Source of the DNA: Victivallaceae bacterium
GTDB lineage: Bacteria > Verrucomicrobiota > Lentisphaeria > Victivallales > Victivallaceae
Assembly (NCBI GenBank): GCA_021647315.1
Contig: JAKIUY010000004.1
Span: 1-64,000 of the forward strand
Direction: 5' to 3'
DNA: 64,000 bases
A program made the position numbers and the translations under genes. Shown piece after piece: positions 896 to 28,889 of this stretch. Position 1 is the stretch's first letter, and every line of letters starts with the position of its first letter. The notes under the pieces were generated by a model that worked only from the letters and a program-made list of their open reading frames with translations, searched no databases and was not told the DNA's origin.

Positions 896-1999
896 TTATA
901 TCCCTAATCCGGCATCTTTCAATACAGTAATTAAATCTTTGAGAATATCAACTTGAGTGATGATCCGCCAATCAACAACCGTGTTCTTAATTGAAGATTC
1001 TGGTTTAAGCCATTCAAACCAAATAATCATTTTAATTTCAGGAAATTGAGTTCGACTTGCCTGTGAAAACAACTGGTTCCACCATTCTTGTTTGATCAGT
1101 GACTCCAATTCAGATGGACTACCTAATGAAGGAACAAAAAATGCAGCCGTCTCCGGAATTGCCATAGGTTTACCTTTATCAACCGCATAAGCCTGATAGA
1201 AATCAGGAAGCATGGTATTATCACCTGCAAATCCATTATATGTTCCTGTAATCTGAGCAGCAAATTTACCAACTTCCGGTATCTCATTCTCACCCCAGGG
1301 ATAACTGCTACCCCAGTGATACAATGACATTGCCACCCAGTCTACTGCACCATCCCCAGGATAATAAGGCTCATAAGGATTATCATAAGCATCAATAATA
1401 CCATCTGAGTTTGTATCAAGAACCTCAAAATCAGGTGAATTGGAAGTTATACTATATGCTCCACCAGTGAATGGATAACCGCCGCCATAGTTTGGTGACC
1501 AAACCATCGCTACCCGACCTCTTGTCAACCGGTGAATGGCATCCGCTATCATAACAAATGCTTGCTTGTATTCAGTCGGTTGCTGGCTCCATGGGTACCA
1601 TGATCCATTCATCTCATGTCCAAAACGAAGAAATATACTGGCTCTAGTCTTTTTAAAAATATTAGCATGTCTTTCCGCCTCTGCAAGAGTAACCGAAGAC
1701 AACCCTCCCCAAGGTTCCAAAGTAACAAATAAATAAGCTCCCTGTGCTTTAACAAGTGCTACAGTTTTATTCAGGGTTATAACGTCAGCCTCACTCATAG
1801 GAAATGCAAAGAACCGAGCATATACTTTTGGTTTAATCCCCAATCTATTGACAACTGCTTCAGGCGAATCAGAGTTCCAGTCAAGACTAAATCCAAAATA
1901 ACCACTTACAGGGGCGACAGAGACGTGTTTTTTAGCATTTGCACTAAATGTAAACAGGGTGACAACGAGAAAAAACAAAAGTAAAAAGTATTTAGTCAT
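896..1999 (-). CDS. Secreted GH26-like glycoside hydrolase (copy 1)
   Basis: This 367-aa protein has a signal peptide (residues 1-22, ending SANA). The GH26 hallmarks are present: HEMNGSWYPW with the acid/base Glu at about 129, and a second Glu at about 283 in AIPETAAF as nucleophile candidate. Known GH26 enzymes cleave beta-1,4-mannans and some beta-1,3- or mixed-linked glycans. Residues 195-206 (DTNSDGIIDAYD) form a dockerin-like calcium loop inserted in the barrel. It is a close paralogue of the gene at 27768-28889. An SD (GGAG) lies 7 nt before the ATG, and the palindrome TACCCATTATGGGTA lies 19 bp upstream of the start. The gene sits at the edge of a c-di-GMP signalling and exopolysaccharide island, so it may trim a self-made polymer instead of degrading food glycans. 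The substrate is not known. Confidence 0.82.
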   Translation of the reverse strand: MTKYFLLLFFLVVTLFTFSANAKKHVSVAPVSGYFGFSLDWNSDSPEAVVNRLGIKPKVYARFFAFPMSEADVITLNKTVALVKAQGAYLFVTLEPWGGLSSVTLAEAERHANIFKKTRASIFLRFGHEMNGSWYPWSQQPTEYKQAFVMIADAIHRLTRGRVAMVWSPNYGGGYPFTGGAYSITSNSPDFEVLDTNSDGIIDAYDNPYEPYYPGDGAVDWVAMSLYHWGSSYPWGENEIPEVGKFAAQITGTYNGFAGDNTMLPDFYQAYAVDKGKPMAIPETAAFFVPSLGSPSELESLIKQEWWNQLFSQASRTQFPEIKMIIWFEWLKPESSIKNTVVDWRIITQVDILKDLITVLKDAGLGI

Positions 2000-2010
2000 T
2001 TTACAGCTCC

Positions 2011-2105
2011 GTATTATATACCCATTATGGGTAAATTTTAGTTAGTTTATCTGGCAAATCAAGCTCAAATGTACAGAATAAAAGTTTAGCATTCAACCTA
2101 AACGA
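2011..2105. promoter_or_regulatory. Conserved ~90-bp block B with 15-bp palindrome
   Basis: The palindrome TACCCATTATGGGTA (7-bp arms, one central base) is at 2019-2033, 19 bp upstream of the GH26 start. About 70 further bases to the right match blocks at 20272-20360, 26060-26152 (inverted) and, more loosely, 12738-12850 (inverted). The palindrome could be an operator for the GH26 gene. The non-palindromic part runs away from that gene, unlike the copies upstream of the HlyD and REC-GGDEF genes. The binding protein is unknown. Confidence 0.5.
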
Positions 2106-2130
2106 GTACAGAAAATATTCGCAAAATCTT

Positions 2131-2157
2131 ATTGCGTTATTATAACAATAACGCAAT
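2131..2157. other. Perfect 11-bp inverted repeat between GH26 and HD-GYP genes
   Basis: Arms ATTGCGTTATT and AATAACGCAAT are separated by 5 nt. It lies about 125 bp downstream of the HD-GYP stop codon on the minus strand. No strong T-run follows, so it may be a weak terminator, an RNA processing hairpin or a protein-binding site. Confidence 0.4.
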
Positions 2158-2280
2158 ATGCTGCAAAATCAAACCCCATCAAGAAAAACTGTTAATTTTT
2201 CTTGATACAGATAGCAGCAATGCCAAAACCTAAATTCACAAAGGAAATGGGAATATGATCATTAAAACTAACATATTGAC

Positions 2281-4668
2281 TTAACATTTAGCATGGTCAT
2301 CTAAATATAACTCCACGTCTATCTCATCAATCTGCCTAATTTCGAGATACTCTTCAGCGTATATTTTATAAACACCTGAGCGTAAGAAAAGCGCAAAAAG
2401 ATCAGCATCAATATGCTGATCTTTTTGCATAAAACTCATAATTTTCAGTGCCTGAGAAATGGTCTTACCTTTTTTATAAGGTCTATCCGAAGCCGTTAAT
2501 GCCTCAAAGATATCTGCTATTGCCATAATTCTAGCAGGAACCGAGAGGTTATCTGCTGTCAGCGCACGCGGATAACCAGTTCCTATCAGAGTTTCATGAT
2601 GAGTACCTGCATATTCCGGTACACGCTTCATATCATCAGTCAAAGGCAGTTCTTCAAGCATTCTTATCGACATGATCACATGCTCTTGAATTTTAAAGCG
2701 CTCTTCCATGGTCAAAGTTCCGCGCTCTATGCAGAGATTATAGATTTCACCATAGTTATAAAGGTGAGTCGGCACCTCTAATTTAAAGCCAGATTCTTTA
2801 TAACTCTTTTCATCAAACCCCACCCGTTTTATCATATGTTCAGCGCGATCACAGAGCAGTGCTTCCTTTGCTGGAAGTGACACGGCATCATGCTCTTCAT
2901 AACGCATTAGTTCATCATTTGAAAGACCTAACCGATTATCAAAATGGCGCATCCAGGATTTAGCAGCAATAGTTACTATGTGTTTTTTGTGCTCTTCACT
3001 CATAAACTCTCCACCGATATTGACCTCTGCGACAAAGTGAAAATCATCAATTAAAGCCTGGTGCTCTTTTGTTTTCCAAGCCTCAAGTTTTTCTTTTTGG
3101 TCACCTTTTATAATACCCTCAAGGTAGGTAATTTCAATATCACGCCATATAACCTCAAAACGGGTACGTATCTCATGGATTCGATTATAGATGGTCTCAA
3201 GTTTAGTTGCTTTATCAACAACATACTCTGGCGTTGTAATTTTCCCACAGTCGTGAAGCCATGCCCCTATTTCAAACTCTTCCAACTCAGTTTTTGTTGA
3301 AAACCGAAATGCTTTCAAAGTCCCAAAGTCAGCCTTGTCAGCCTCTTTAACCAACATCATTGCCAAAAGCGGTACACGTCTACAATGTCCACCGGCATAG
3401 GGAGATTTTGCATCAATCGCACCGGCAATGAGTCTGATAAAGGAGTTCATTAACTCTTTTTGTGACGCTTGATACGCCTGAATACTCTTCGACATTTTCA
3501 CTAGAGAATTAGATAATTCACTAAGCTCAATTATTTTGGTTTTAACCTCATTAACCTCATCAAATTTACGTTGAATGATCTTTTTATTTTCAACCATCAA
3601 AGCATTTATGGGTTGTACGATCAACGATGTTGCATAGATAATAAACGGTATACAGAGAATAAAAATAAGCAATGCTGCCAATAGTTGATAGGCTATGCTT
3701 TCAAGATAGGGTTTTAACATCTCAGCTTTATTCACACTGATGCCAAGATAAGTACTGACACCATTTTCACTGCTCAAGGCTGTCACCATTGCGAATCGCG
3801 GCTGGTTACTCACCTCGATTACAATGACTTTTTCTTTTTCACTTTGAAAAAAAAGTTTGCTGAGCTTTTTTCTATCCTTGTTACCTAAGCTATTTGACGT
3901 GGCAATGACCTGCCCGTTATGGTCAAACATAATAATTTCACTTGAATTGGAAAACTTCATTTCCTTCAGCAGTATATTCAATCTTTGCAGGGTAAAGTCA
4001 AGTGCCAAAACCGTTGATGTTGTTCCCACACGTTTTGAATAGGTAATGCCCTTTTGATTAAGGTTGCTGAAAGTGTAAGGGCTACTTCTTACAACCGCCT
4101 CAGTTTTCATGGCCTGCTGGAACCAAGGTCGGGAGTTTACCATGTAGTTTGATGGTTCATCCCGACTTAAAATCAAAGAAAACGCTGCATCAAAGTAATA
4201 TAAGTTCTTTTTCCTATTATCGGACGCCCCCTCGATTTTGATAATGAGCCATCTTGTCGTCGCCGGTGCCTTGAAGTGGCTATAGAGTTGTGGGGAGTTC
4301 TTCATATTGATTACTTCAAGAAAATCACCATTTTTTTCACCGCTGTAGATCGCATACATATTATTATAACGTTTCAAAGTATAGATATATCGTTTAATAA
4401 CATTTATGGGCAATGATCCGCTGCCCGGTTTGCTGATATCAGGGAAACGCTGCATCTGATAAAGAATTTCTTTTGCTACTTGATCGCGACTCTGGATGTC
4501 GGCAGTAATTTTTTCAACGGTCTGGCGAAATGCACGTTCAGTTGCGTCAAATGCTATCTGCTTGCCGAAATAGTACTGCACCACGGAAAAAACCAGTGCT
4601 ACCAAAGCGACAATAACAATAATATAAGTGATAATATGAATTCGCAGTGTAATCTTATTTAAAAACAT
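2281..4668 (-). CDS. Membrane-bound HD-GYP signalling protein (c-di-GMP phosphodiesterase-like)
   Basis: This 795-aa protein has TM1 at about residues 9-33, a large periplasmic dCACHE-like sensor region, TM2 at about 325-350 and a HAMP/coiled-coil linker. An HD-GYP domain occupies most of the C-terminal half. The HD motif is clear (GGHCRR, then HDCGK), and the second block reads HHETLIGTGYP followed by IMAIADIFEALTA and RPYK. The usual consensus is HHExxDGxGYP; here the Asp before Gly is Ile, which might reduce activity. A long insertion separates the HD and GYP halves. HD-GYP proteins hydrolyse c-di-GMP or related dinucleotides. It is the last gene of a minus-strand run with the histidine kinase 61 bp upstream, suggesting that it ends a signalling operon and counteracts the neighbouring GGDEF enzymes. 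Confidence 0.85.
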   Translation of the reverse strand: MFLNKITLRIHIITYIIVIVALVALVFSVVQYYFGKQIAFDATERAFRQTVEKITADIQSRDQVAKEILYQMQRFPDISKPGSGSLPINVIKRYIYTLKRYNNMYAIYSGEKNGDFLEVINMKNSPQLYSHFKAPATTRWLIIKIEGASDNRKKNLYYFDAAFSLILSRDEPSNYMVNSRPWFQQAMKTEAVVRSSPYTFSNLNQKGITYSKRVGTTSTVLALDFTLQRLNILLKEMKFSNSSEIIMFDHNGQVIATSNSLGNKDRKKLSKLFFQSEKEKVIVIEVSNQPRFAMVTALSSENGVSTYLGISVNKAEMLKPYLESIAYQLLAALLIFILCIPFIIYATSLIVQPINALMVENKKIIQRKFDEVNEVKTKIIELSELSNSLVKMSKSIQAYQASQKELMNSFIRLIAGAIDAKSPYAGGHCRRVPLLAMMLVKEADKADFGTLKAFRFSTKTELEEFEIGAWLHDCGKITTPEYVVDKATKLETIYNRIHEIRTRFEVIWRDIEITYLEGIIKGDQKEKLEAWKTKEHQALIDDFHFVAEVNIGGEFMSEEHKKHIVTIAAKSWMRHFDNRLGLSNDELMRYEEHDAVSLPAKEALLCDRAEHMIKRVGFDEKSYKESGFKLEVPTHLYNYGEIYNLCIERGTLTMEERFKIQEHVIMSIRMLEELPLTDDMKRVPEYAGTHHETLIGTGYPRALTADNLSVPARIMAIADIFEALTASDRPYKKGKTISQALKIMSFMQKDQHIDADLFALFLRSGVYKIYAEEYLEIRQIDEIDVELYLDDHAKC

Positions 4669-4729: not shown

Positions 4730-6775
4730 CTAATACTGCTTCAACATCACACTAGCTTCATTCTGCCATTTAATTGGCAGAGTTACAGTAAATGTGGATC
4801 CTTTGCCCAATTTACTTTTAACATCGATAGCACCGCCGAGTAGTTTTATCATTTTATCAGCGATACTAAGCCCGAGTCCAGTCCCTCCGTATTTTCGTGA
4901 TGATGAACCGTCAACCTGTTTAAACTCGTCAAAAATATACCCCAAATAGTTTTCAGAAATGCCGATACCAGTATCTTTAACCGCGAAATAAACATTGTCA
5001 GAATCATATTTCAAGCTGACATTAACCGAGCCCCCGTCTGAAAACTTAATCGCATTGCCTACCAAATTTAACAATACCTGATGCAGTTTTATTGCGTCTG
5101 TTTTTACGCGAGGTATTTCATCCGGAATTTGCAGACTGAGTGTCACACCATTTCCTTTTGCCAAAGGAGTTAAATTTTCCTCTATAATATCCAATGCTAA
5201 ACCGAGCGAAACATCAGTAAGCGTGACATCCATTCTGCCAGCTTCAATTTTAGCGAGATCCAGTATACCGTTGATAAGCCGAAGCAGATCCTGGCTATTG
5301 CGTTCAACGATTTCAAGATAATTATTTTCTTCAATACTGAGTTTATCCTTAGTCTGGACAATTAAGACATCCGAAAGCGCTATAATAGAATTCAGGGGAG
5401 TGCGCAGTTCATGGCTCATATTAGAAAGAAATTCACTTTTAAAACGGTTCGAATCTTCCAACGATTGACGCTGTATTTCCAATTCAAGGTTCTGGTGCTG
5501 TAATGCATCGGCTTGAGTTTCCAGTTTTGTATTTGATAAACTAAGTTCTTCCCGTGATTCATTCACATCTTCCAGTAAATAGGTCAGCGCTTGCTGAGAC
5601 TTTTCCAAATCGGCTGTCCGCTCATAAACCAGCTCTTCCAGTTGTCCTCGATGTTGCCTCAGTTCCTCTTCAATCCGCTTTCTCTTGTCAATGTCAATAA
5701 GTAAATTTTGAGACATTTGATTAAATGACTGTGCCAGCAAGCCGATTTCATCATGTGACTTAATTATGATTTTTTCATCTAAGTTGCCGTTGCTTATAGC
5801 TTCGGCAAAATGCGCCAGATGAACAATGGGTTTAACAAGGGAGTTTGCCAGGATTAATGAAAGTACCATAATTAAAATAACCGATATTATTATGATGGTG
5901 ATCATTATGTTCCTCAAATAAAATAATTTCGCAAATGCTTCAGCATAATTTACGCGCACATTTAATCCGAAACCGACTTTTTCAAGAAAATTACTTACGG
6001 CTATTACTCTTTTGTTTTGACTGTCAATAACATCTTCAAAGACAAACACATCTGGCTGCAATGATCTTTTAGAGATAACGCCTATTGTTTTAATATTATC
6101 AAAATAAATAATCGGCTGATTTGTATTACGATGAGCTGAGATCACATAAGCGTCTCCAATTTTCTTTATGATCCGGGTATATCCAGTTTTGCCTAAACCG
6201 GAATAATCAGTAATAAAAGCGACAATTTTATCTGCATTAGCATCAATTGCAATAACCCCGAGAAGTTGATTATCATATATTAATGGACCTGATAAATACA
6301 TCATTAATTCATTCGTATTACTTAAAAAAAAGCTGCCAATAACATCTTCTTTTTGTCCTTTGACAAAAAAATCTTTAGCGGCATAATCCAGCCCTATTAC
6401 CTTGCTATCGGTAGACGCAATAACTTTCCCATCCAATGTTAATACAGAAATGGTCTCGAATTTTGCAATTGAAGTTTTAGCATCATTTAAAATAGTGTTA
6501 ATTTTATCAATATTCCGGTGTTCTCCACTCTTAATATAATTTTTCAAGCTGATACGCAGTTGGGTTCGACTCTTTATCAGTGCGATCCTCTCGCTATTTT
6601 GCTCAATTAAATTATCCAATCGCTCTTTTTGAATCTTCGCAATTTCTATTAAATTACCAGTAATTTCTTCGGTTAAAACTATTTTCATCGAAATATATGA
6701 GGTAACCCCGAGAAGCATCAATGCTATTAATGAAATCACAACCGTTATTAACAATATTTTATATTTTATTTTCAT
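4730..6775 (-). CDS. Membrane sensor histidine kinase (dCACHE-HAMP-HisKA-HATPase)
   Basis: This 681-aa protein has TM1 at about residues 7-29, a periplasmic dCACHE-type sensor, TM2 at about 292-314 and HAMP at about 315-370. A coiled coil leads into HisKA with SNMSHELRTPLN (phospho-acceptor His at about 458). The HATPase_c domain has the N box (HQVLLNLVGNAIKFS), G1 (DTGIGI) and G2 (GGTGLGLSI). There is no receiver domain, so the phosphoryl group probably goes to a separate receiver such as the REC domains encoded just upstream (9436-12738 and 12825-14648). The PAS gene start lies 30 bp beyond on the same strand. The ligand is unknown. The C-terminal half closely resembles that of the hybrid kinase at 15134-18790. 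Confidence 0.9.
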   Translation of the reverse strand: MKIKYKILLITVVISLIALMLLGVTSYISMKIVLTEEITGNLIEIAKIQKERLDNLIEQNSERIALIKSRTQLRISLKNYIKSGEHRNIDKINTILNDAKTSIAKFETISVLTLDGKVIASTDSKVIGLDYAAKDFFVKGQKEDVIGSFFLSNTNELMMYLSGPLIYDNQLLGVIAIDANADKIVAFITDYSGLGKTGYTRIIKKIGDAYVISAHRNTNQPIIYFDNIKTIGVISKRSLQPDVFVFEDVIDSQNKRVIAVSNFLEKVGFGLNVRVNYAEAFAKLFYLRNIMITIIIISVILIMVLSLILANSLVKPIVHLAHFAEAISNGNLDEKIIIKSHDEIGLLAQSFNQMSQNLLIDIDKRKRIEEELRQHRGQLEELVYERTADLEKSQQALTYLLEDVNESREELSLSNTKLETQADALQHQNLELEIQRQSLEDSNRFKSEFLSNMSHELRTPLNSIIALSDVLIVQTKDKLSIEENNYLEIVERNSQDLLRLINGILDLAKIEAGRMDVTLTDVSLGLALDIIEENLTPLAKGNGVTLSLQIPDEIPRVKTDAIKLHQVLLNLVGNAIKFSDGGSVNVSLKYDSDNVYFAVKDTGIGISENYLGYIFDEFKQVDGSSSRKYGGTGLGLSIADKMIKLLGGAIDVKSKLGKGSTFTVTLPIKWQNEASVMLKQY

Positions 6776-6805: not shown

Positions 6806-7312
6806 CTACAATGATTTAATTTTATCTCTGAGTTCCTTTATTCTGAATTCACGACCGATAAAAAGTTTATTAAAACGTTTCAGTTCCGCATTTTTATCTT
6901 CCAACTCCAATGTCCTCGCCTTGACCAACTCTTCCAAATGTTCGCGATGTTGTTTCAGCTCTTCTTCTGCCTGCTTGCGCTCAGTGATATCCATAGTAGT
7001 AAAAATCACTCCCTTCGCTAGATCCTTGCTGTCGACCGGTGTCGATGCTAGCAAAACGTCAATTATCGATCCATCCTTTTTCTGCCAACGAGTTTCAACA
7101 ACTCCTGTTCCATGTTCGGCAATTTGGCGATATTTTTCTTTGCCGACAAATTCAAAATCTTCCTGAGTCGGGTAGAGCATTCTTGCGCATTGTCCAATAA
7201 GTTCTTTCTTGGTATAGCCTATTATATCACAAACCAGTGGATTCATTTCAAGCAGTACTCTATCTTTAACGATGCCAATGCCGGTCGGGGCAACACGAAA
7301 TATACCCCGCAT
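6806..7312 (-). pseudogene. C-terminal PAS piece of a frameshifted multi-PAS sensor
   Basis: Its 168 residues hold a PAS domain (VAPTGIGIV through FTTMDITERKQAEEEL), a coiled coil and a tail reading FIGREFRIKELRDKI. The similar tail at 19118-20182 (FVGRELMIKTLQEKI) ends another PAS-only sensor. The piece begins exactly where the upstream frame (7243-9357) loses PAS homology. One extra A in the A8 run at about 7312-7319 would join them as SEKKMRGIFRVAPTGIG, the normal start of a PAS repeat. It is therefore most likely the continuation of that gene, not a separate one. The ATG at 7312 is an internal codon and no SD is evident. Confidence 0.75.
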
Positions 7313-9357
7313 TTTTTTTCACTGTCCCGCAACGCCATTTCGACCTGTTGCTGTTTAGTAATATCGCGAATAATTGCCTGTGTTCCGATAATTTTATCAT
7401 GCTTGATGATTGGCACAGCAGATAACATGATACTGGCCAAAGAGCCATCTTTTTTAATAAAATCGGAGTAATCCTCTTCGATATCCCTGCCTGCTCCAGT
7501 AATCCTAAAGGTCTCTTTTGCATGGGAAATCTCAGATTTGGAAACCAATTCTGTAATATTCCTGCCAATAAGTTCTTCCGGTTTGTAGCCAAATACTCGC
7601 ATAACAGAAGGGGATACATAGGTAATATTATCCTCAAGGTCAATTGACACAATCAGGTCGTAGATGCGTTCAGTTATACTCTTAAACTTATCCTCACTTT
7701 CACGCAACGCTTCTTCAGCCTGTTTGCGCTCAGTAATGTCTTTGGCAATCGCGCAAGTAATCTCCCGGCCACCAAAATTGATCAAGTTGGCAGTTATTTC
7801 TACCGGGAAAGTAGTTTGATCCTTTCTCCGGTGAGTAGAGTGAATGACAACTGATTTATGTGTTTTCAAACCACTCCAATTTGCGCCCCAACGCTCTTCC
7901 GAAAGTTCAATATCTATATCGTATACGGTCATGGTAAGCAGCTCTTCTTTGGAGTATCCCAACGTCTCAGCTGCCACATTATTCACATAAATCAATTCCG
8001 CATCCAAGCCCATCCAGTAAACCGCATCCAGCGAATGATCAACCGAGAACTGCGTAAGTTGCAGTGTCTCTGCGGTCTGTTTACGTTTAGTGATATCTTG
8101 GGTAAAACCAATAGCTGTAAGCGGATTTCCATCTGTATCAAATGTAATATCAGCTTTTTCTCTTACCCATTTTACTTTATCATCAATAATCATGCGATGC
8201 TCAATATCATAAGGCTCTCCATTAAGCCCGGCACGCCATTCTTTAGCAACGTAATCCCTGTCAGCAGGATGAATACAGTCTAAAAACAACTCATAGTTCA
8301 TTTCCGTTCCAAGCGGCACGTCGAAAATTTTATAAGTTTCATCAGTCCATATCAAAGCATTCTGCTGAATATCCAGTTCCCAGGTGCCAAGCTTTCCTAT
8401 TTCCTTAGCTTTAGTTAAATAATACTTATTTTTTAAAAATGCTCCTCCCGCCTGCTTGCACTCGTTGATATCGCGGCATGATTCGATAATTTGGACCACC
8501 TCGCCTGCATCACCTAAGATCGGTGTCGCCAAAATCTCAACGATTATTTCATTGCCATCCACATCATAGTGCAAATGTTCAACCTTAACTGCCTGCCGGG
8601 TTGCAATAACTTTTGGCAACGGACATGGGTGCAGCTCATCATCACATGGCAGTTGACGGTTATGAGAAACTTCATAGCATTTCATGCAACCAGAGATCGG
8701 ATCACTCGCCGTCAACCGCTGTACGGCCTGATTTGCCAGAGCAATCGTATAATCACGGTTAATCACCATCAGCATCTCGGGAAATCCATCAATTACCGTC
8801 TGTAAAAAATCGTAAGAACGCTCACGCTCAGTTTCCAACTGTCTGCTTTCGATGACATCGGTACCGATACTGAGGATGCCTGCGATTGTTCCTTGATCGG
8901 TTTTCAATACGGTATTTGCCCAACTGACCAACCGCGCTGAACCATCCCGGCATAAAATATGATTTTCATAGGAAGATACTTCCGGCATCTCTTTGAGGAC
9001 ATCCTGAAAAATTTCGGGAATCACGGTAGAGTTATCTTTGGGAATGAACAGCTCAAACCAGTTTTTCCCGATTACCTCCTGTTTTTGATAACCTGTGAAT
9101 TTTTCCGCGAAGCCGTTAAACAGAATAATATTGGCATCGGTATCTAATGTAACAATGATGACATTAGCGGTTTCCAACAGGGTTTCAGCAAATTCTTTTG
9201 TCTGTCGCAGAGGTTGCTGGTTGGCGATAAGTTGCTTGTCAGCCTTTAATCCTGCTGCTTGCCGATGAGATAATACTGCTTTAAATTCACTGTTTTCAGC
9301 CCTTAAGAGCTCCAGTTCTTTAAAAAGTTGTTCTCTGGATTGATCAGAATTATTCAT
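7243..9357 (-). CDS. Multi-PAS sensor protein, frameshifted near its 3' end
   Basis: This 704-aa frame has about five PAS/PAC repeats, each ending with a TERKQ-like PAC motif, and no kinase, GGDEF or other output domain. The second PAS has a Cys-rich segment (MKCYEV ... LPCDDELHPCPL, about residues 225-248) that could hold a cofactor. Coding similarity stops at SEKK, after which the frame runs about 23 foreign residues to a stop, while the sixth PAS continues in another frame (6806-7312). Cause and position fit a one-base loss in an A8 run. It is probably soluble and signals by protein contact with the adjacent kinase or REC-GGDEF proteins. It starts 79 bp after the REC-PAS-GGDEF gene and 30 bp before the kinase gene, so co-transcription is likely. 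Confidence 0.8.
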   Translation of the reverse strand: MNNSDQSREQLFKELELLRAENSEFKAVLSHRQAAGLKADKQLIANQQPLRQTKEFAETLLETANVIIVTLDTDANIILFNGFAEKFTGYQKQEVIGKNWFELFIPKDNSTVIPEIFQDVLKEMPEVSSYENHILCRDGSARLVSWANTVLKTDQGTIAGILSIGTDVIESRQLETERERSYDFLQTVIDGFPEMLMVINRDYTIALANQAVQRLTASDPISGCMKCYEVSHNRQLPCDDELHPCPLPKVIATRQAVKVEHLHYDVDGNEIIVEILATPILGDAGEVVQIIESCRDINECKQAGGAFLKNKYYLTKAKEIGKLGTWELDIQQNALIWTDETYKIFDVPLGTEMNYELFLDCIHPADRDYVAKEWRAGLNGEPYDIEHRMIIDDKVKWVREKADITFDTDGNPLTAIGFTQDITKRKQTAETLQLTQFSVDHSLDAVYWMGLDAELIYVNNVAAETLGYSKEELLTMTVYDIDIELSEERWGANWSGLKTHKSVVIHSTHRRKDQTTFPVEITANLINFGGREITCAIAKDITERKQAEEALRESEDKFKSITERIYDLIVSIDLEDNITYVSPSVMRVFGYKPEELIGRNITELVSKSEISHAKETFRITGAGRDIEEDYSDFIKKDGSLASIMLSAVPIIKHDKIIGTQAIIRDITKQQQVEMALRDSEKKCGVYFVLPRPALASLKIEYCLK

Positions 9358-9365: not shown

Positions 9366-9466
9366 CAGTTTACACCTTACTTTTCTTGGCCTTATACATC
9401 TTCCCGGCTTAAGGCCTTCGGCACTGTAAGCCAGTTTACACCTTACTTTTCTTGGCCTTATACATC
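9366..9466 (-). repeat. Duplicated GGDEF gene tail (35-bp direct repeat, 66 bp apart)
   Basis: Bases 9432-9466 encode the last codons of the REC-PAS-GGDEF protein (MYKAKKSKV and stop). The same 35 bases recur at 9366-9400, just downstream of its stop codon. The second copy is a relic tail with its own stop, probably left by a tandem duplication or slippage event. Confidence 0.75.
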
Positions 9467-18790: not shown

Positions 18791-18817
18791 ATAATACTCC
18801 AATTTCATTCCAGTTTA

Positions 18818-19118
18818 GTGTCGCGCGACTTAAATAACTATACCCCCATTTTCGGCTCGACGGAGTCTCGCCCTCCAGTATCAAAATACAGTTCAACAAT
18901 GGAGGGCGAAAGTCCCTTGAGCTTTTTGTCTGTGCATTATGATCTGGGGATCACAAACTTATGTCGCGCGACTTAAATAACTATACCCCCATTTTCGGCT
19001 CGACGGAGTCTCGCCTTCCAGCATCAAAATACAGCGCAACGATGGAGGGCGAAAGTCCCTTGAGCTTTTTTGTTAGTCCATCATGAACGAGGGGGCATGA
19101 ACTTACGCCGAGCGACAC
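18818..19118. mobile_element. Two tandem copies of the GTGTCG MITE-like element
   Basis: Copies span about 18818-18970 and 18966-19118, fused head-to-tail through a shared GTCGCGCGAC junction. Each has the core pair CTCGACGGAGTCTCGCC / GGGCGAAAGTCCCTTGAG, which folds back around CCTCCA/TGGAGG, and outer ends GTGTCG/CGACAC next to TA. The right end supplies the stop codon of the PAS gene: TAG is made from the flanking TA plus the first G of the element. The whole 310-bp space between the hybrid kinase and PAS genes is this repeat. Confidence 0.75.
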
Positions 19119-20182: not shown

Positions 20183-20271
20183 TTTTCCTCCATTTATAAG
20201 CATCAAATCATGCGTCTATCCAGTTTTTATAAAATTAATCAATAAATACTGAAAACGTCTTACAGACTGTT

Positions 20272-20360
20272 TATACCCATTATGGGTAGTTTTCAGTTAG
20301 TTTATCGGGTAAATTAAGCTCAAATGTACAGAATAAAAGTTTAAAATTCAACCTAAACGA
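20272..20360. promoter_or_regulatory. Conserved block C with palindrome TACCCATTATGGGTA
   Basis: The palindrome at 20274-20288 lies about 90 bp upstream of the PAS gene start. The following 70 bases are almost identical to block B at 2034-2105, including AAGCTCAAATGTACAGAAT and CAACCTAAACGAG. The long arm points away from the PAS gene towards the 3' end of the GGDEF gene, so either the palindrome acts alone or the block is a dispersed copy of a promoter. Confidence 0.5.
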
Positions 20361-20458
20361 GTTTACAACATACCTATTTACAAATTCCCTCTCCATAAAA
20401 ATTAACATAACCGCTATTCAATCATTTGTCAAAACATTTTTATTAATTCTGCGACATA

Positions 20459-22093
20459 TCAACCGTTAAAAATTATATCATCATGAGTTTTTATAATATT
20501 CTTACCTGATTGCTTGGCTAAGTACATGGCTTCATCAGCTTTTTTCAGTAAAATATCTTCGCTGTCATTCTTATCCAAAAAAAGTGCAATACCAATACTG
20601 GCACCTACACTTTTCTCTCTACCATTCAGCAAATATGGTTTCTGTAAAGATTTCAATATTTTTTGGGCCGTTATTTGGGCATTTTCAAGCGTCTCTACAT
20701 TTTGTAATATTACCGTAAATTCATCACCGCCAAATCTTGCAACCGTATCGGATTTACGCAATGTGCTACTAATTCTTTTAGCCGTTTCCCGCAAGACTAC
20801 ATCACCTGCATCATGACCAAGTAGATCATTTATCTGTTTAAATCCATCTAAATCAATAAATAATACCGCCAGCATCAGTCGATTTCTCACGGATAATTTC
20901 ATCGCTTGAGTCAAGCGGTCAAGAAACAGTTTACGGTTTGGAATAGCAGTAAGTTCATCAAAGTTGGCCATATGGCGCAGACCAAATAAATATAGCTTTT
21001 TATTTACTACTGATTGAGCAAGGAGCCATAAAATAACGCCAGCAATGACTATAAAAACTGCTGTAAGCCATAATAGATTAAAAAGCGAAAATCTACTCAT
21101 TTGCGCTTTGATCACTTTATCAGGGATGAAAGATATTAATTTCCAGTAGTAGCTTTGACTGCCAAAACTTTTACTACTTGCCCCGCCAGTAATTGCTGAA
21201 CCATTGCTGGAAATAATTTTATCAGCAAAAGGTGAGACCGTAGTCGAAGTAAAAATACCGCGGGAATTTCTGAATTGAGTCGCATTTTTTATGGAAATCT
21301 GCGCCCATTCATCAGTAAACTGCATGGAAAACTTACGTTTTTTTCTGTCGCTGAACATAAAACCCCATTCATTGCCCTTTTCCGAACAGTATAACCAATA
21401 ACCATCTGAATTAACCAGCATGGCTTCACCATTTGATAACTCAGCTATTTCAGTAATACTGGTTATAATATCTGCCGCCAAATAATTTAAGATGACTATA
21501 CCACTTTTATTCCCGTCAGGATCTGTTACCGGTGTCCCCACACGTATCATGGGCTTTAAAGGAAGTTCGACCTTACCTTTTTCAATATTTAAGTCCAGCG
21601 GTGAAACAAACATCTGACCAAACTCAAGGCGAATGGTATCTTTAAAATAATAGCGTTGGCTTTTTGATTGAAGCTTTTGTTCAGCCACAATATATGGGTT
21701 ACCGTTATTATAGTTGACTCTATTTGTTTCCATGCCATTTTTATCAATAAAGCGCACCTGATCATATATCGCCTTTGTTCTACAAAAAATCAGGTATTCA
21801 TTACTTTGATGCTTATGATTACAACAAAAACGCTCTCTATAAAGTCCAACCAAAAAACTCAAATCCGAGAATATGCCTGAAAGTTTTCTTTGAATACTTT
21901 GCTTCTCAAGTTCGATCACCGCACGATCTTTAAACATCAAATTATTTTCAACATCACTCAATTCAATATTATATAATACTAAAACAATAATGATAAAAAT
22001 TATATTGATCACACAAAACATTAAAATAAAGTATTTTAAAATACTTTTATTCTTATTATTTAAAACTGAAACATTCTTTGCAGAACTCGTCAC
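20459..22093 (-). CDS. Membrane diguanylate cyclase (dCACHE-GGDEF)
   Basis: This 544-aa protein has TM1 at about residues 20-42, a periplasmic dCACHE-type sensor (45-330, with RVGTPVTDPDGNKSGIVILNY), TM2 at about 343-366 and a C-terminal GGDEF domain. RFGGDEF is preceded by RKSD five residues upstream, the I-site. A catalytically active c-di-GMP synthase inhibited by its product is predicted, sensing a small extracellular molecule. Upstream lie a 248-bp inverted-end element and a 151-bp segment almost identical to one upstream of the HlyD-GT2 operon, so the two units may share a promoter region. Confidence 0.9.
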   Translation of the reverse strand: MTSSAKNVSVLNNKNKSILKYFILMFCVINIIFIIIVLVLYNIELSDVENNLMFKDRAVIELEKQSIQRKLSGIFSDLSFLVGLYRERFCCNHKHQSNEYLIFCRTKAIYDQVRFIDKNGMETNRVNYNNGNPYIVAEQKLQSKSQRYYFKDTIRLEFGQMFVSPLDLNIEKGKVELPLKPMIRVGTPVTDPDGNKSGIVILNYLAADIITSITEIAELSNGEAMLVNSDGYWLYCSEKGNEWGFMFSDRKKRKFSMQFTDEWAQISIKNATQFRNSRGIFTSTTVSPFADKIISSNGSAITGGASSKSFGSQSYYWKLISFIPDKVIKAQMSRFSLFNLLWLTAVFIVIAGVILWLLAQSVVNKKLYLFGLRHMANFDELTAIPNRKLFLDRLTQAMKLSVRNRLMLAVLFIDLDGFKQINDLLGHDAGDVVLRETAKRISSTLRKSDTVARFGGDEFTVILQNVETLENAQITAQKILKSLQKPYLLNGREKSVGASIGIALFLDKNDSEDILLKKADEAMYLAKQSGKNIIKTHDDIIFNG

Positions 22094-22379: not shown

Positions 22380-22381
22380 CT

Positions 22382-22652: not shown

Positions 22653-22810
22653 GTGTCGTCCGGCGTAAGTTCGTGCCCCCCCTTTCTAGCTCGACGGAGT
22701 CTCGCCCTCCAGTATCAAAATCCAGTTCAACAATGGAGGGCGAAAGTCCCTTGAGCTTTTTGTCAGTGCATTATGATCTAAGGAGGTCACAAACTTATGC
22801 CGAGTAACAC
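22653..22810. mobile_element. GTGTCG MITE-like element, 158 bp
   Basis: GTGTCGTCCGGCGTAAGTT at the left end is inverted as AACTTATGCCGAGTAACAC at the right, with TA on both sides (22651-22652 and 22811-22812), consistent with a TA target duplication. The interior fold-back is CTCGACGGAGTCTCGCC / GGCGAAAGTCCCTTGAG. The bases just left (GACAC) mirror the element start, possibly the end of an earlier copy. A CCGGCTATGCCGG hairpin at about 22575 precedes it. Confidence 0.75.
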
Positions 22811-22892: not shown

Positions 22893-24848
22893 TCATTCCA
22901 TCTCTTTACCGAAAGCGCGTAGAAACAATTGGGAAATTACACTATATATGTGCTGTACACCAGCTACCTGATTATTATATTTACCCGTGAACAGCTTGGC
23001 AATAATTTCATCTCTCTGCTCGGAAGAAGTGTTAATAAATTTCACCATAAACGCCGCTTTATTAGAATTTATTATTTCCATAGACAGCAAACCTGAAATA
23101 TCTGGAATATGAATATCAGCTATATCACCACGCTGAACGATGCGTTCACCGGCACCGTGTCTGATTTTACAGCCGCCAAGCGAAAGATCCTCAATCACCA
23201 CCTTATGACCTCGAAAATCAATTTCTTCTTCAATTGGGAATCGCTCTTCAAGCCGTTTGCGTGGCGCGTCAATACAGATTAAAGCGCATATCCCAAGTAA
23301 CAAAATATTGAAAGTAGCCCAACCTATTGCATAGGGAAAGAACTGTTTGGTAGTTAATATCTGATACTCCGGCACCAGATTAATCATTATGCCTGCCAGT
23401 GTCAGAAAGATAAGGGTTAAAACTATGTATAGAATATAATAGTCAGTTCCGGTATCTGAACCCGAGCCCTTCGGGGTTACCTTAAACGGCACACCAAATG
23501 GCTTAATAATACTGGCAACAACTACCGGTAACATCCTAAACATACTGAAAACTCCAACTGCCGTAGAAATCAGCGGGATATATCTATTAGACGCTAACCA
23601 GCGTATTGCCAAAACAAACAGCAGCAGCATTGGCAGCTGATAGAACAGAATATCTCCGATATGAATAAAGTACATTGGCGACAGTCCGGTCCATAAATAG
23701 ACAATAGGAGTCATCAGCAGCATAAAACGGGTAATCGGCTGCACTAACCAACCGTAAGGAGCAAACAGCAGGCGCTGTAACGGTGACAGTCCTTTGGCGC
23801 GCAGTGGACCTTCCTTGACAAAGAAACATTGAATACCGCCTTGACACCACCTTGCCCGTTGCACAAAAAAACCTTCAACAGACTCCGAAGACATTCCCTG
23901 ACTAAGCTTTTCATTGAGATATATCGTGCGATAGTTAAAAGTCAACAAAGTCAGGGTTGTCAGCAAGTCTTCTGTAATTGATGATGTCGGTATACCACCT
24001 GCTTTTTCAATCGCTTCCCTACGAATAATCGAACATGAACCACAGCAAAATGCCGCATTCCAACTGTCCCGGCATGGCGCCATGGCATCAAAAAACAGCC
24101 GCTGTTCATCCGGCCAGACTTTACTCAGGTAAAGATTGGATTGAATAGGATCTTTATTGAAAAAATGCTGCGGTGTCTGGACTATGCCAATATCATCATT
24201 GTGAATAAAGAAACCAATAGTTCTCATCAGAAAATTTTTTGCGGGAATAAAATCAGCATCAAAAATAGCAAAGAGCTCACCGGAAGTATGCTTTAAAGCA
24301 CTATTCATATTGCCTGCTTTGGCATGTCTGTTATCCGGACGGGTTAAATACCCCACCCCCTTTTCAGCACAATGTTCTTTCAGCCACTGGCGTCTTGTAT
24401 CATCGAGAACCCAGACCTTAAAATTAGGATAATCAATATTTTTAGCACCAATAATAGTTTTTTCCAGAACATCGATTTCTTCGTTATAAGTTGGAATAAA
24501 AACATCAACAGATGGAAATCTGAAAAGATCTTTTTGATAATGATCAGCTTCTTTGTGACGTTCATTTGTTCTACTCATGATTAACAGGAAAATGACGACC
24601 TCAACAAAAGCCAGAACCTCGACACTGAACACAAATAATACCCAGAAATACCCTATGTCAAAATTTTTTTCACCCGGGGTAACGGTATAAAAATATCTCC
24701 ATAAAAGATAACGAATACCAATAACTACCGCAAATACTGCAACAATAGCACGATGCGCATTGTGTTCTTTATCTAAAAATGGTTTGACTAACAACCAGAA
24801 CGCAATAATAAATAACATCGGACTAAGAGAAAAAAGACTAAAAGACAC
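22893..24848 (-). CDS. Cellulose-synthase-like GT2 glycosyltransferase with PilZ domain
   Basis: This 651-aa protein starts at a GTG inside the last codons of the HlyD gene (11-bp overlap), indicating translational coupling. It has N-terminal TM helices, a GT2 domain with VFIPTYNE, the DD of WVLDD, the DxD motif in FDADF, TED in SITEDLLTT, and QRARW, the Q-x-x-R-W signature of processive beta-glycan synthases. Several TM helices follow, then a C-terminal PilZ domain (RKRLEERFP and EDLSLGGCKI, matching RxxxR and DxSxxG) that binds c-di-GMP. The layout equals BcsA. It should polymerise and export a beta-linked glycan across the inner membrane when c-di-GMP is high. The sugar is unknown. No BcsB, BcsC, Alg44 or AlgE homologue is visible; HlyD may replace the periplasmic partner. 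Confidence 0.9.
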   Translation of the reverse strand: MSFSLFSLSPMLFIIAFWLLVKPFLDKEHNAHRAIVAVFAVVIGIRYLLWRYFYTVTPGEKNFDIGYFWVLFVFSVEVLAFVEVVIFLLIMSRTNERHKEADHYQKDLFRFPSVDVFIPTYNEEIDVLEKTIIGAKNIDYPNFKVWVLDDTRRQWLKEHCAEKGVGYLTRPDNRHAKAGNMNSALKHTSGELFAIFDADFIPAKNFLMRTIGFFIHNDDIGIVQTPQHFFNKDPIQSNLYLSKVWPDEQRLFFDAMAPCRDSWNAAFCCGSCSIIRREAIEKAGGIPTSSITEDLLTTLTLLTFNYRTIYLNEKLSQGMSSESVEGFFVQRARWCQGGIQCFFVKEGPLRAKGLSPLQRLLFAPYGWLVQPITRFMLLMTPIVYLWTGLSPMYFIHIGDILFYQLPMLLLFVLAIRWLASNRYIPLISTAVGVFSMFRMLPVVVASIIKPFGVPFKVTPKGSGSDTGTDYYILYIVLTLIFLTLAGIMINLVPEYQILTTKQFFPYAIGWATFNILLLGICALICIDAPRKRLEERFPIEEEIDFRGHKVVIEDLSLGGCKIRHGAGERIVQRGDIADIHIPDISGLLSMEIINSNKAAFMVKFINTSSEQRDEIIAKLFTGKYNNQVAGVQHIYSVISQLFLRAFGKEME

Positions 24849-26061
24849 GAATAAACCTACTTAAAAAGTTCCAATGGCTCCACTTGCGTGGGAATTTAAC
24901 AGTTACTCTTCGTCCAACCTGAGAAAATGCATTATCACTCATAATAACATCTCCCGAATCGGCTTTCACCCAAATTCTAAACTCTTTTTTAGGATCTTTC
25001 TTGAGTGATGCCGCTAAATTGACATCCCCCTGAACAATACCAGACCCCCGCGTTGTAAAAACCACCCCATAGTGCGTTTTCACCTCACCTTTCAATTGAA
25101 AAGAGACCTTTGTCCCAGGAATAATATTATCAAACTCAGATTCAGAAACCGTGATGTCCAGAAATACGCTCTTAAGCTCCAGCAAAATTATTGTTTCAGA
25201 GTCAATTACCATGGTACTGCCACTGCTCGACGGCATACGCCACACTAAGCAGTCAAACGGAGCTATTATGAGATACTTCCTCATCCGTTTAATTCGCTGC
25301 TGCTCTTCTACAATTTGCTGTTCAATTCCTTGCAGGCGATTAACCGACTCGTTGTATACAGTTTCAGCCAATGATATTTCAATCACCAATTGATCCCACC
25401 GCTGTTTAGAATATGGCGAATCTTGATTACCTTCTTCGAGAAAAATACCAGTTTTTATCGCAGCCAGTGAATTATCAAGTTCTGCCAAACGCCCCTTGAT
25501 CTGAGTTAAACGGGCACTGGATTCCACAAGATTGGCTTCATGCCTTTCCAATTCACGATCGCCTATAGCCTTTTTCTTAATTAGAAAACGTGAAGATTCA
25601 TATTCAGCTTTAGCCCGTATATTTTCAGCTAATTCCGCTGCTAATCGCTGTTTCTCCTGGTCAATTTGTAAAGAAAAACGTTGCTGTGAGAATTTTTGAT
25701 GGTCAGCTGTCTTCTTTTTAAGAGAAGCACTTAATTCAGAGAAAGATCTAATTCTTTTCCTTATACTGTCAATTCTGGCTTGCAACGTTTTCGTTTCGGT
25801 CCGCAATTCATAGAGAAAACTATTATTAATTCTGTCATTGGTTATCGCTCCAATCACTTCACCTTTTTTAAAAAAGGTTCCATATTCAGTTGCTTTTGCA
25901 AATTGCAGTTTACCCTCAATAGGACTGTGTAAGGTTAATATTCTACCATTAACAACCCCATCCGCAGAGTTAAACAAATACAATTTAGGCGCAATGGCAA
26001 AAAAAAGCACTACAATCACCATTAAACCTATAAAAATGCGGGTTTTCTTTTTATTTAACAT
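24838..26061 (-). CDS. HlyD-type membrane-fusion protein partnered with the GT2 synthase
   Basis: In this 407-aa protein an N-terminal TM helix (about 9-28) is followed by a lipoyl-like half (GRILTLHSPIEGKLQFAKATEYGTFFKKGEVIGAI). A long coiled-coil hairpin (about 85-265) comes next, then the second lipoyl half (YLIIAPFDCLVWRMPSSSGSTMVIDSETIILLE) and beta-barrel region. HlyD/EmrA-type adaptors bridge inner and outer membranes in secretion. The 3' end overlaps the GT2 gene, so the pair is one operon and the protein probably carries polymer through the periplasm, as Alg44's HlyD-like region does for alginate. A conserved block with a 15-bp palindrome is directly upstream. Confidence 0.85.
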   Translation of the reverse strand: MLNKKKTRIFIGLMVIVVLFFAIAPKLYLFNSADGVVNGRILTLHSPIEGKLQFAKATEYGTFFKKGEVIGAITNDRINNSFLYELRTETKTLQARIDSIRKRIRSFSELSASLKKKTADHQKFSQQRFSLQIDQEKQRLAAELAENIRAKAEYESSRFLIKKKAIGDRELERHEANLVESSARLTQIKGRLAELDNSLAAIKTGIFLEEGNQDSPYSKQRWDQLVIEISLAETVYNESVNRLQGIEQQIVEEQQRIKRMRKYLIIAPFDCLVWRMPSSSGSTMVIDSETIILLELKSVFLDITVSESEFDNIIPGTKVSFQLKGEVKTHYGVVFTTRGSGIVQGDVNLAASLKKDPKKEFRIWVKADSGDVIMSDNAFSQVGRRVTVKFPRKWSHWNFLSRFIRVF

Positions 26062-26152
26062 ATACTCGTTTAGTTTGAATTTTAAACTTTTATTATGTAT
26101 AATTTAGCTTAATTTGCCAGTTAAACTAATTAAAACCTACCCATAATGGGTA
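26062..26152 (-). promoter_or_regulatory. Conserved block D: putative operator and promoter of the HlyD-GT2 operon
   Basis: On the minus strand the palindrome TACCCATTATGGGTA (26138-26152) is followed 13 bp later by TTAACT (26124-26119), a 17-bp spacer and TATACA (26101-26096), a plausible sigma-70 promoter about 35 bp before the ATG. A palindrome just upstream of -35 suits an activator. The whole block matches blocks B, C and E. Confidence 0.55.
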
Positions 26153-26304
26153 TAAATTCAGATAACTCTATAATATTAAAGACCGAAATGAATATCGATG
26201 AAATATAATTAACCACCAATAATCAAACGACCTTATTTTACCCTGACAGGTTAAGCTTTTTACCTGCCACAACACTTGTCATTATTGTAATTAGTTTATT
26301 ATAG

Positions 26305-26787: not shown

Positions 26788-26832
26788 GTATTAAAAACCT
26801 AGGGTCGAGTAATCACTGGCGCATGTGCGCTT

Positions 26833-27172: not shown

Positions 27173-27330
27173 TTGCGATCTAAAAGCTATTAAAGAGCTG
27201 CGCAGTTGAGCTTAAATAGGCGCAGTAAACTAGCTAAAAGAATGCACTTGTGTATAAGAATTCTCCATTTGAGTTGCGGTATAAGATAAATTGCCAATTT
27301 CAATAGCAGAACTTATGGGACACGGTACTA

Positions 27331-27484
27331 GTGTCATCAGGCGTAAGTCCGTGACCCCCTTTTCGGCTCGACGGAGTCTCGCCCTCCAGCATCAAAATCC
27401 AGCTTAACAATGGAGGGCGAAAGTCCCTTGAGCTTTTTGTTAGTGCATTATTAACAGGGGTCACATACTTACGCCGAGCAGCAC
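27331..27484. mobile_element. GTGTCG MITE-like element, 154 bp
   Basis: GTGTCATCAGGCGTAAGT at the left end is inverted as ACTTACGCCGAGCAGCAC at the right, with TA on both sides (27329-27330, 27485-27486). It has the same orientation and core fold-back as the copy at 22653-22810. Confidence 0.75.
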
Positions 27485-27490
27485 TAGTTA

Positions 27491-27764
27491 GACGCTGCTC
27501 GAAAAGGTTTTCGGAATACCGAAACCTTTTCAAACATCGTCTGTACCTCAAAATTAAAATTTTGCGGCTTGTTTTTTAGAACTTTTTTAGTTTAGAAATA
27601 TACTTCTTATGTTATTTTATCAATAACTATCTAAAAACGAGTAAGAAGTATATTTTTAATGCCTCAATTTCTAAGAAAATTCTTTGAAATTAATATATAC
27701 GGAGCGGAGAAAAGCCTTTAATTTCCGCGATGCGGAAAATTCAAAAATCTTTTCGAGCACCATC
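27491..27764. mobile_element. Third MITE-like family, 274 bp, at the end of the GH26 gene
   Basis: GACGCTGCTCGAAAAGG at the left is inverted as CTTTTCGAGCACCATC at the right, flanked by TA on both sides. The left part holds a second hairpin (GAAAAGGTTTTCGG / CCGAAACCTTTTC). It directly abuts the preceding GTGTCG element and ends 3 bp from the stop codon of the second GH26 gene. Confidence 0.65.
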
Positions 27765-27767
27765 TAG

Positions 27768-28889
27768 TTAGTCTTTCAGTTCAACTCCTAAATCGGCCTC
27801 TTTTAAAACAGCAATAAAACTCTCCAGTATATCAAATTTATTGCTTATCCTCCAGTCAACCACTGTTCCACCAAGCTCTGATTCCGATTTTTTCCATTCA
27901 AACCAGTTAATCATTTTAATCATTGGAAACTGCGTGCGACTTTCCTCTGAAAAAACCTGATTCAACCAATTTTTCTTAATTTGGTCCTCTAAGTCTGCGG
28001 TCCCGATTGAAGGAACAAAAAGTGCAGCTGTCTCCGGAATTGCCATCGGCTTCTCATTGTCGACCGCATAAATATGATAAAAATCAGGAATCATGGAGTC
28101 ATCACCATTTAAACCATTATAGGTTCCTGTAAGCTGGGCAGCAAATTTTCCATCCTCGGGGATCTCATTCTCACCCCATGGATAACTGCTTCCCCAGTGG
28201 TATAAAGTCATAGCCACCCAGTCAACAGCATCGTCCCCCGGATAATATGGGCCGTAAGGGTCATCGTAAGCATCAACCTTCCCGTCTGAATTAGTATCAA
28301 GAACGCCAAAATCAGGATCACCTGGCTTTATCCCGTACTGACCACCTACAAACGGATAACCGCCACCATAGTTTGGTGCCCAAATCATTGCAGCCTTGCT
28401 TTTAGCCACCCTGTGCAGAGCATCCGCCATCATTTTAAATGCTCGCTTATATTCAGTCGGCTGTTGGCTCCAAGGATACCAGGAACCATTCATTTCATGT
28501 GCGAAACGAACAAAAATACGAACTCCAGCTTTTTTAAAGATTTCTGCGTGCCTGTCAGCTTCTCCCTCAGTTATTGAAGCTAATCCATCCCAAGGTTCGA
28601 GAGTAACAAGCAGATACGCCTTATGCTTTTTCACCAACTTAGCTGTCCGCTTAAGCGTTTTAACATCCTCTTCATCCATAGGAAAAGCAAAAAAACGAAT
28701 ATAAACTCGGGGACTGAAACCCCATCGCTTGTAAATTTTATTGGGAGTATCATTTGCCCAGTCAAGATTCAAGCCAAAATACCCCCCATTTTTCGGAGCA
28801 AGCCTTGCCTTGTTATCCGAAGTTGCAGCCTCAATATCAACGATAAATTGAGAAATACACAAAAAGAACAATATTAAAAAAAACTTCAT
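27768..28889 (-). CDS. Secreted GH26-like glycoside hydrolase (copy 2)
   Basis: This 373-aa protein has a signal peptide at about residues 1-21. It shows HEMNGSWYPW with acid/base Glu at about 132, nucleophile candidate Glu at about 286 (AIPETAAL), and the same dockerin-like calcium loop (DTNSDGKVDAYD, about 198-209). Most of the length is identical or similar to copy 1 at 896-1999, so the two arose by duplication and now sit at opposite ends of the c-di-GMP/GT2 island. The tail is about five residues longer than copy 1 (ELKD), just where a MITE-like element begins. No palindrome block was found upstream. Known GH26 members are endo-beta-mannanases and related enzymes; the substrate here is not determined. 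Confidence 0.82.
   Translation of the reverse strand: MKFFLILFFLCISQFIVDIEAATSDNKARLAPKNGGYFGLNLDWANDTPNKIYKRWGFSPRVYIRFFAFPMDEEDVKTLKRTAKLVKKHKAYLLVTLEPWDGLASITEGEADRHAEIFKKAGVRIFVRFAHEMNGSWYPWSQQPTEYKRAFKMMADALHRVAKSKAAMIWAPNYGGGYPFVGGQYGIKPGDPDFGVLDTNSDGKVDAYDDPYGPYYPGDDAVDWVAMTLYHWGSSYPWGENEIPEDGKFAAQLTGTYNGLNGDDSMIPDFYHIYAVDNEKPMAIPETAALFVPSIGTADLEDQIKKNWLNQVFSEESRTQFPMIKMINWFEWKKSESELGGTVVDWRISNKFDILESFIAVLKEADLGVELKD

Follow-up and report, generated by a model that had tools for sequence, protein, structure and literature searches.

A putative bgsBA relative with canonical PilZ motifs in a polysaccharide locus of a Lentisphaerota bacterium

The mixed-linkage β-glucan (MLG) of Sinorhizobium meliloti was reportedly first described in a 2015 paper. 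In this species bgsBA is the cyclic di-GMP (c-di-GMP)-activated MLG system, and PMC9495663 describes a bgsBA-like operon of Rhizobium etli in similar terms: its BgsB is HlyD-like, and its product is sensitive to lichenase. In the literature we searched, bacterial MLG production has been shown in few organisms. Here we analyse a 64,000-nucleotide (nt) stretch of DNA (the window, to which all coordinates refer) from the draft genome of a Victivallaceae bacterium (4.86 Mb, 217 contigs, completeness 93.8%), in which an island at 896–28889 encodes a periplasmic adaptor and a family 2 glycosyltransferase (GT2). We propose that the core of this island is a bgsBA-type adaptor–synthase pair: a c-di-GMP-gated synthase whose product is likely MLG, with export through the adaptor, signalling by neighbouring proteins and trimming by GH26 enzymes. 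Taken whole, this explanation seems to us reasonably probable. Judged by its sequences, the locus would extend a system of known type to a phylum new for it; its regulatory domain is a variant, and the role of GH26 is uncertain. It agrees with the initial annotation, which proposed a synthase-dependent β-glycan system in which the synthase bears a PilZ domain, the adaptor is periplasmic and BcsB is missing.

Compared with a plasmid collection, the synthase matched 601 records to some extent, all below 60% identity and many of them Rhizobium or Sinorhizobium plasmids. Its residues 14–648 are 46.5% identical to a synthase on pSymB of S. meliloti 1021. The pSymB gene translates to 664 residues, and 11 of 11 published BgsA letters stand in it at their published numbers (E327, R535, R536, R599, D602, R605, D608, H615, Y633, G635 and R656, numbered as in the available part of PMC5567048), against 1 of 11 for the alternative start; by this sequence comparison the pSymB protein (L057) is BgsA. 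End to end, the locus synthase and BgsA are 47% identical (311 of 668 columns). The locus synthase carries DDT at 149, DAD at 197, TED at 292, QRARW at 330 and FKVTPK at 455.

We then placed the protein in a tree of 51 synthases, with the C-terminal domain excluded and L047 left out. The locus synthase groups with three Victivallaceae/Lentisphaeria rows (support 100), and this group is placed next to the clade that holds BgsA, Methylobacterium and Azospirillum (support 91); the CrdS-type and BcsA rows are placed outside this BgsA-side group. We take one of these rows, L060, to be CrdS by the crdASC layout; its own annotation is cellulose synthase catalytic subunit, and its neighbours are a multidrug transporter and a hypothetical protein. 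Because this is a quick tree by one method with long branches, the exact neighbour of the locus synthase appears less sure than the exclusion of BcsA. One alignment column points the same way. According to PMC6821405, CrdS, BgsA and plant CslF6 have Arg at the position of Glu299 in Rhodobacter sphaeroides BcsA. The locus synthase has Arg250 there, and across 52 rows the column holds Arg in 46, Cys in two (L055 and L056), Ala in one (L010), a gap in one, and Glu and Thr in the BcsA rows.

The adaptor gene (24838–26061) overlaps the synthase gene (22893–24848), as the initial annotation had noted, by 11 nt; the overlap in S. meliloti bgsBA is 19 nt, and the order is adaptor then GT2 in both. The adaptor aligns nearly full length with the product of the gene directly upstream of bgsA (BgsB), at 28% identity over 398 columns (E 1e-49, single comparison), and because of this alignment we consider it a BgsB homologue. 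Pfam gives it no name, its sole match, KIF9, being below cut-off; NCBIfam returns weak EmrA/RND-type adaptor matches, likewise below cut-off.

A pattern scan of a genome collection of 84,980 species yielded 44 loci with GT2 relatives (three from Lentisphaeria, the others from Methylobacterium and kin, Thalassospira and others), and the phylum genome L010 made 45. L036 and L056, with fewer than 200 bases upstream, were uninformative. The adaptor lies directly upstream of the GT2 in 40 of the 43 informative loci; in L053, a CrdS-type locus, it lies about 1.3 kb upstream, and L035 and L038 lack it. No further neighbour family was widely common across the loci, the next clusters being mostly Thalassospira synteny. 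A small HD-GYP gene and a GGDEF gene follow the pair in two Victivallaceae loci, L014 and L015 (by Pfam for L015 only); c-di-GMP enzymes recur beside the pair, in types that differ from those in the window.

The initial annotation reported neither BcsB nor BcsC and expected an unusual export route. BcsB (PF03170) indeed has no match in the whole genome at its completeness of 93.8%; BcsC was not searched for. The route, however, is that of bgsBA and not a new one. Three TolC-like proteins are encoded in the genome; the gene for one of them shares a contig with the synthase gene and lies about 45 kb away from it. In L056 the genes run GT2, GH26, outer-membrane efflux protein, and by analogy this order hints at a TolC-type exit for the polymer.

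The clearest departure from BgsA is in the regulatory domain. The locus synthase ends in a PilZ domain (E 5.9e-8, 33.4 bits against a Pfam cut-off of 22.5) with both motifs present, RxxxR as RLEER and (D/N)x(S/A)xxG as DLSLGG. PMC5567048, in contrast, reports the C-terminal domain of BgsA (C-BgsA) to be a new type of c-di-GMP domain that lacks the PilZ motifs and is structurally different, and the secondary-structure prediction given there speaks against a PilZ barrel fold. R599 and H615, with which BgsA contacts c-di-GMP, have no counterpart in the locus synthase; within the 22 rows of the BgsA clade, Arg occupies the R599 column in four and His the H615 column in two, the columns being uncertain there. 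The same source describes changes at G635 and R656 as cutting activity, not binding; both residues are shared by the locus synthase (G622 and R644), in which the counterpart of Y633 is Phe620. Because it has a canonical PilZ instead of a non-PilZ domain with R599 and H615, the locus synthase is better described, from these comparisons, as a bgsBA relative than as a strict BgsA member.

The family alignment suggests how the two domains are related. We sorted C-terminal domains by eye on their motifs into 18 motif-bearing rows, all 18 chosen for having both PilZ motifs, and 22 motif-less rows, in which the second motif is absent from 22 of 22 and the first from 21 of 22 (the match in L017 is out of register). 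This tally is not independent of the sorting. The tree is: the 22 motif-less rows are exactly one clade, with support 100, in a tree built without this domain. Rows of both groups align from the last membrane helix to the C-terminal end. Neither group includes L010, L039, L045, L047, L050, L053, L055, L056, L060, L061 or the two BcsA rows; as judged by eye, both motifs occur in L010, L039, L045, L050 and L061 and not in L053 or L060, and L055 and L056 have no such C-terminal domain. The C-termini of L039 and L050 resemble, again by eye, two tandem PilZ-type domains.

Profile comparison of the whole domain, motif-less against motif-bearing, gave 99.4% probability. The barrel part alone gave 97.4% (E 1.5e-11), with 1.0% for the reversed control. 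Against the two BcsA domains, the barrel part gave 0.5% for the motif-less group and 93.3% for the motif-bearing group; the link from C-BgsA to PilZ would be an indirect one, via the motif-bearing relatives. Pfam, run with a limit of E 10 and with filters that remove most matches weaker than about 0.1, found no PilZ in the scanned C-domains of S. meliloti, Rhizobium, Methylobacterium and Microvirga; PilZ was weak in that of Azospirillum (0.031) and clear in 5 of 5 scanned motif-bearing domains, the locus one included. C-BgsA, the domain of rhizobia and Methylobacterium, is best read as a PilZ domain that underwent decay a single time and can no longer be recognised by itself, and the version at this locus suggests an origin for the signal-sensing part of BgsA. 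In the literature searched, from which most subscription papers were outside coverage, we found no statement of C-BgsA as a decayed PilZ, nor of bgsBA in Lentisphaerota.

In the system we propose, the GT2 would polymerise glucose from UDP-glucose and push the chain through its own membrane channel, and c-di-GMP on PilZ would open the gate for the substrate, as it does in BcsA. The BgsB-like adaptor would carry the chain over the periplasm, probably to one of the TolC-like outer-membrane proteins of the genome. The product is likely (1,3;1,4)-β-glucan. Neighbouring GGDEF and HD-GYP proteins could raise or lower c-di-GMP for the synthase, and trimming or release of the polymer would fall to the secreted GH26 enzymes. 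The features of the island, with the evidence for each, are as follows.

22893–24848, minus strand: BgsA-like GT2 synthase with C-terminal PilZ (Pfam GT2 and PilZ, 47% identity to BgsA, tree, AlphaFold2, motifs)
24838–26061, minus strand: BgsB-like HlyD/RND-type periplasmic adaptor (28% identity to the S. meliloti adaptor; adjacency in relatives)
27768–28889, minus strand: GH26-b, N-terminus signal-peptide-like by eye (Pfam; PDB profile search; alignment, with HEMNG and the PETAA Glu)
896–1999, minus strand: GH26-a, paralogue of GH26-b at 65% (Pfam, tblastn, alignment)
20459–22093, minus strand: GGDEF diguanylate cyclase with a sensor domain and RKSD I-site, the signalling gene closest to the synthase (Pfam, motif)
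12825–14708, minus strand: REC-PAS-GAF-GGDEF diguanylate cyclase (Pfam, motif)
9436–12738, minus strand: REC-PAS-GAF-GGDEF diguanylate cyclase (Pfam, motif)
2281–4668, minus strand: HD-GYP phosphodiesterase with a Cache-like sensor, motifs HDCGK and HHETLIGTGYP (Pfam, motif)
15134–18808, minus strand: hybrid histidine kinase with three REC domains (Pfam)
4730–6775, minus strand: histidine kinase, HAMP-HisKA-HATPase (Pfam)
19118–20206, minus strand: PAS-only protein (Pfam)
7243–9357, minus strand: PAS-only protein (Pfam)

Gene calls and Pfam place every gene named by the initial annotation on the minus strand inside the island: three GGDEF proteins, each with RxxD and GGDEF in translation (RDTD at 9436–12738, RDTD at 12825–14708 and RKSD at 20459–22093), one HD-GYP protein, two histidine kinases, and two closely similar GH26 enzymes at the ends (65% identity over 350 aligned residues by tblastn). 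Its count of two PAS-only proteins holds for 7243–9357 and 19118–20206; an additional PAS fragment at 6806–7312 lies alongside and is probably the end of the 7243–9357 protein, split by a frameshift or an assembly error. Several of the signalling genes have 300-nt stretches in common, at 68–83% identity, as if PAS and kinase modules had been duplicated locally. Their common strand and closeness suggest that the signalling proteins may serve the synthase.

The window also holds repeated and mobile sequences. A DDE_Tnp_1 transposase fragment lies at the island edge (2–454). A dispersed repeat of about 92–101 nt, resembling a miniature inverted-repeat transposable element, occurs at 2017–2117, 20272–20372 and 26063–26154 and has 41 matches in the genome at 78% identity or more; a second, of 109 nt, occurs at 18819–18927, 18962–19070, 22653–22761 and 27330–27438 and has 28 full or partial matches. 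Being genome-wide repeats, these shared 101-nt and 109-nt sequences were ruled out as a regulon signal. Beyond the island, 32435–34477 encodes a fusion of a BD-FAE esterase domain with a GH42-like domain and adjoins a sulfatase (30772–32133). An Rfam scan of the window gave no match at gathering scores, and a tRNA scan found none.

GH26-a and GH26-b exceed the Pfam cut-off of 20.2 bits by a small margin, with 20.8 and 26.5 bits respectively, and the matches are short. E132 and E286, the catalytic Glu residues of GH26, are invariant in 9 of 9 aligned sequences. A profile of these nine sequences met Endoglucanase H first in the PDB (E 4e-10), followed by the GH26 entry 6hf2 (7.5e-6), mannanase-named entries (from 5e-5) and a β-1,3-xylanase (0.3). 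Endoglucanase H is presumably CtLic26A, the GH26 lichenase of Clostridium thermocellum, which cuts MLG. Since the top-scoring stretch spans under half of the profile, a lichenase-like substrate is no more than suggested; judging from sequence, action on the locus polymer is plausible. An AlphaFold2 model of GH26 was poor (pLDDT 47.6, from 3 sequences). Both enzymes carry a loop of the form DTNSDG(x)xDAYD, which resembles a calcium site and is partly conserved in the nine-sequence alignment.

A third GH26, 60% identical to the locus pair and without a signal-like N-terminus by eye, is encoded on contig 15 of the same genome. Around it, in a prophage-like element (L108:6271–16647; 9 proteins scanned), lie an integrase, an anti-repressor, an internal-virion-like protein and a tail/virion-like protein. 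Its apparent placement next to virion-like genes is as expected of a depolymerase. No relatives of this GH26 were confirmed in IMG/VR by pattern scan, and none were found in INPHARED.

Do the GH26 enzymes belong to the system at all? They may instead be digestive or mobile cargo that flanks the locus by chance, an explanation whose chances we put just short of even. The third copy in the prophage-like element, the genome-wide repeats and the nearby transposase fragment favour it. So does the distribution of the genes. Among 78 family genomes, 16 have some GT2 match, four have the synthase (the own genome and three at 62%) and one has the GH26-b type. The three others are probably the same Victivallaceae/Lentisphaeria metagenome-assembled genomes (MAGs) as L013–L015, whose isoleucyl-tRNA synthetases are 71–73% identical to that of the host (70% for two included Victivallaceae members), values by which the host is a Lentisphaerota bacterium within Victivallaceae or close to it; Pfam found GH26 in 0 of the 3 named relatives with the 62%-identical synthase. 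Across the phylum sample, 13 of 387 genomes have a GH26-b-like match, the own genome included, and in the 12 others the best synthase match is 37% over 434 of 651 residues. The six best homologues lie in genomes without a comparable synthase, five of the six in open frames of 900–1337 residues. We therefore rejected GH26 as a standing partner of this synthase branch, and the idea in the initial annotation that GH26 replaces BcsZ as a conserved design did not survive the comparison of neighbours across these genomes. GH26-b is in no obvious operon with the adaptor gene, since the gap of about 1.7 kb between them contains copies of the genome-wide repeats.

On the other side, two copies flank the locus, and their profile prefers Endoglucanase H, the presumed MLG-cutting enzyme. 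Distant loci also have GH26 beside a GT2: a MAG contig (L055:3–3108) holds an adaptor (cut), a GT2 and a GH26-like open reading frame (cut by the contig end and assigned by BLAST grouping with L056), and a second (L056:1–3898) holds a GT2 followed by GH26 by Pfam and then the efflux protein. These are contigs of Gammaproteobacteria and Verrucomicrobia MAGs, and their GT2s are distant BgsA relatives, without a PilZ domain and with Cys in the Arg250 column. GT2 with GH26 in G125 and G344 was not counted, the GT2 being of a different type (a GH18/deacetylase–GT2 fusion). Such a fusion followed by a GH26-like gene was seen at L112:6045–10396 and L113:6116–10638, in two families of the phylum.

Several observations count against the bgsBA-type explanation that we prefer. 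GH26 is not conserved with the adaptor–synthase pair, as the family counts above show. The signalling genes are tied to the synthase by their position, and any action on it is putative. In the available text of PMC10374906, the PilZ of the Romboutsia MLG synthase neither bound nor responded to c-di-GMP in vitro though its key arginines are conserved, which by analogy is a warning for c-di-GMP control at this locus. The sister position to BgsA hangs on the single support value of 91 in a quick, long-branched tree, and linkage specificity cannot be safely read from the synthase sequence. An AlphaFold2 model of the synthase (23 sequences, mean pLDDT 89.1, pTM 0.87) predicts a BcsA-like fold, with matches to BcsA structures that take in the PilZ domain; the alignment to c-di-GMP-bound BcsA (4p00, Z 38.2 over 634 residues) speaks for our explanation. 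Against it, the closest match of the model in the PDB is a cellulose synthase, BcsA (9b8v, Z 41.3 over 631 residues), and the plant MLG synthase CslF6 is lower at Z 23.8; among the best 50 structure matches listed, none is named a bacterial MLG synthase. The top NCBIfam model is cellulose synthase CelA, at 436.6 bits against a cut-off of 699.1, and BgsA itself scores comparably (408.4).

With both searches putting cellulose synthase first and a canonical PilZ as in BcsA, the pair could make a cellulose-like (1,4)-β-glucan without BcsB. We consider this unlikely: the synthase groups with BgsA and not BcsA, it has Arg where the BcsA type has Glu (or Thr in another cellulose clade), its partner is a BgsB-like adaptor, and the genome has no BcsB match. 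A mannan-like product of the GT2, with the GH26 enzymes as the mannanases that cut it, at which the initial annotation hinted, would fit the available description of GH26 as primarily endo-β-1,4-mannanases (PMC13390465) and is very improbable, given a synthase homologous to a glucan synthase (47% to BgsA, tree, Arg250) and a GH26 profile that meets Endoglucanase H before mannanases.

If the bgsBA-type explanation is true, a pair of this type with an intact PilZ in Lentisphaerota would widen the range of MLG. Should MLG be the substrate of the GH26 enzymes, the locus and the phage-like element would show a hydrolase common to coat maker and phage. One may go further and imagine an organism with an MLG coat that phages must cut, in which GH26 exchanged between phage and host gave a tool for polymer release and the synthase kept an ancestral PilZ switch, lost in rhizobial BgsA, where new c-di-GMP contacts within that domain took its place. 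We offer this as a doubtful conjecture.

How, then, does the locus compare with known systems? Endoglucanase H, which the GH26 profile ranks first in the PDB, has the HE-NG-WYPW and YPGD stretches in common with the locus enzymes; it is distant (E 4e-10, about half of the profile aligned), and the locus GH26 has an added DTNSDG-type loop. RiGT2 of Romboutsia ilealis is likewise a GT2 with PilZ and no BcsB, with an MLG product shown in the part of PMC10374906 available; it differs in being Gram-positive and in the PilZ that bound no c-di-GMP in vitro, and we liken it by description, not by sequence. The BcsA–BcsB cellulose synthase shares the GT2 fold, the gating loop FxVTxK and PilZ, whereas the locus has an adaptor, no BcsB match, Arg at the Glu299 position and a tree position outside BcsA. 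Closest are the bgsBA genes of S. meliloti and R. etli, likewise two overlapping genes, an HlyD-type adaptor and then a GT2, at 28% and 47% identity respectively; S. meliloti also has a diguanylate cyclase gene in the vicinity. Unlike BgsA, the locus synthase has the canonical PilZ motifs and lacks R599 and H615, and the locus has GH26 genes nearby and a Lentisphaerota host.

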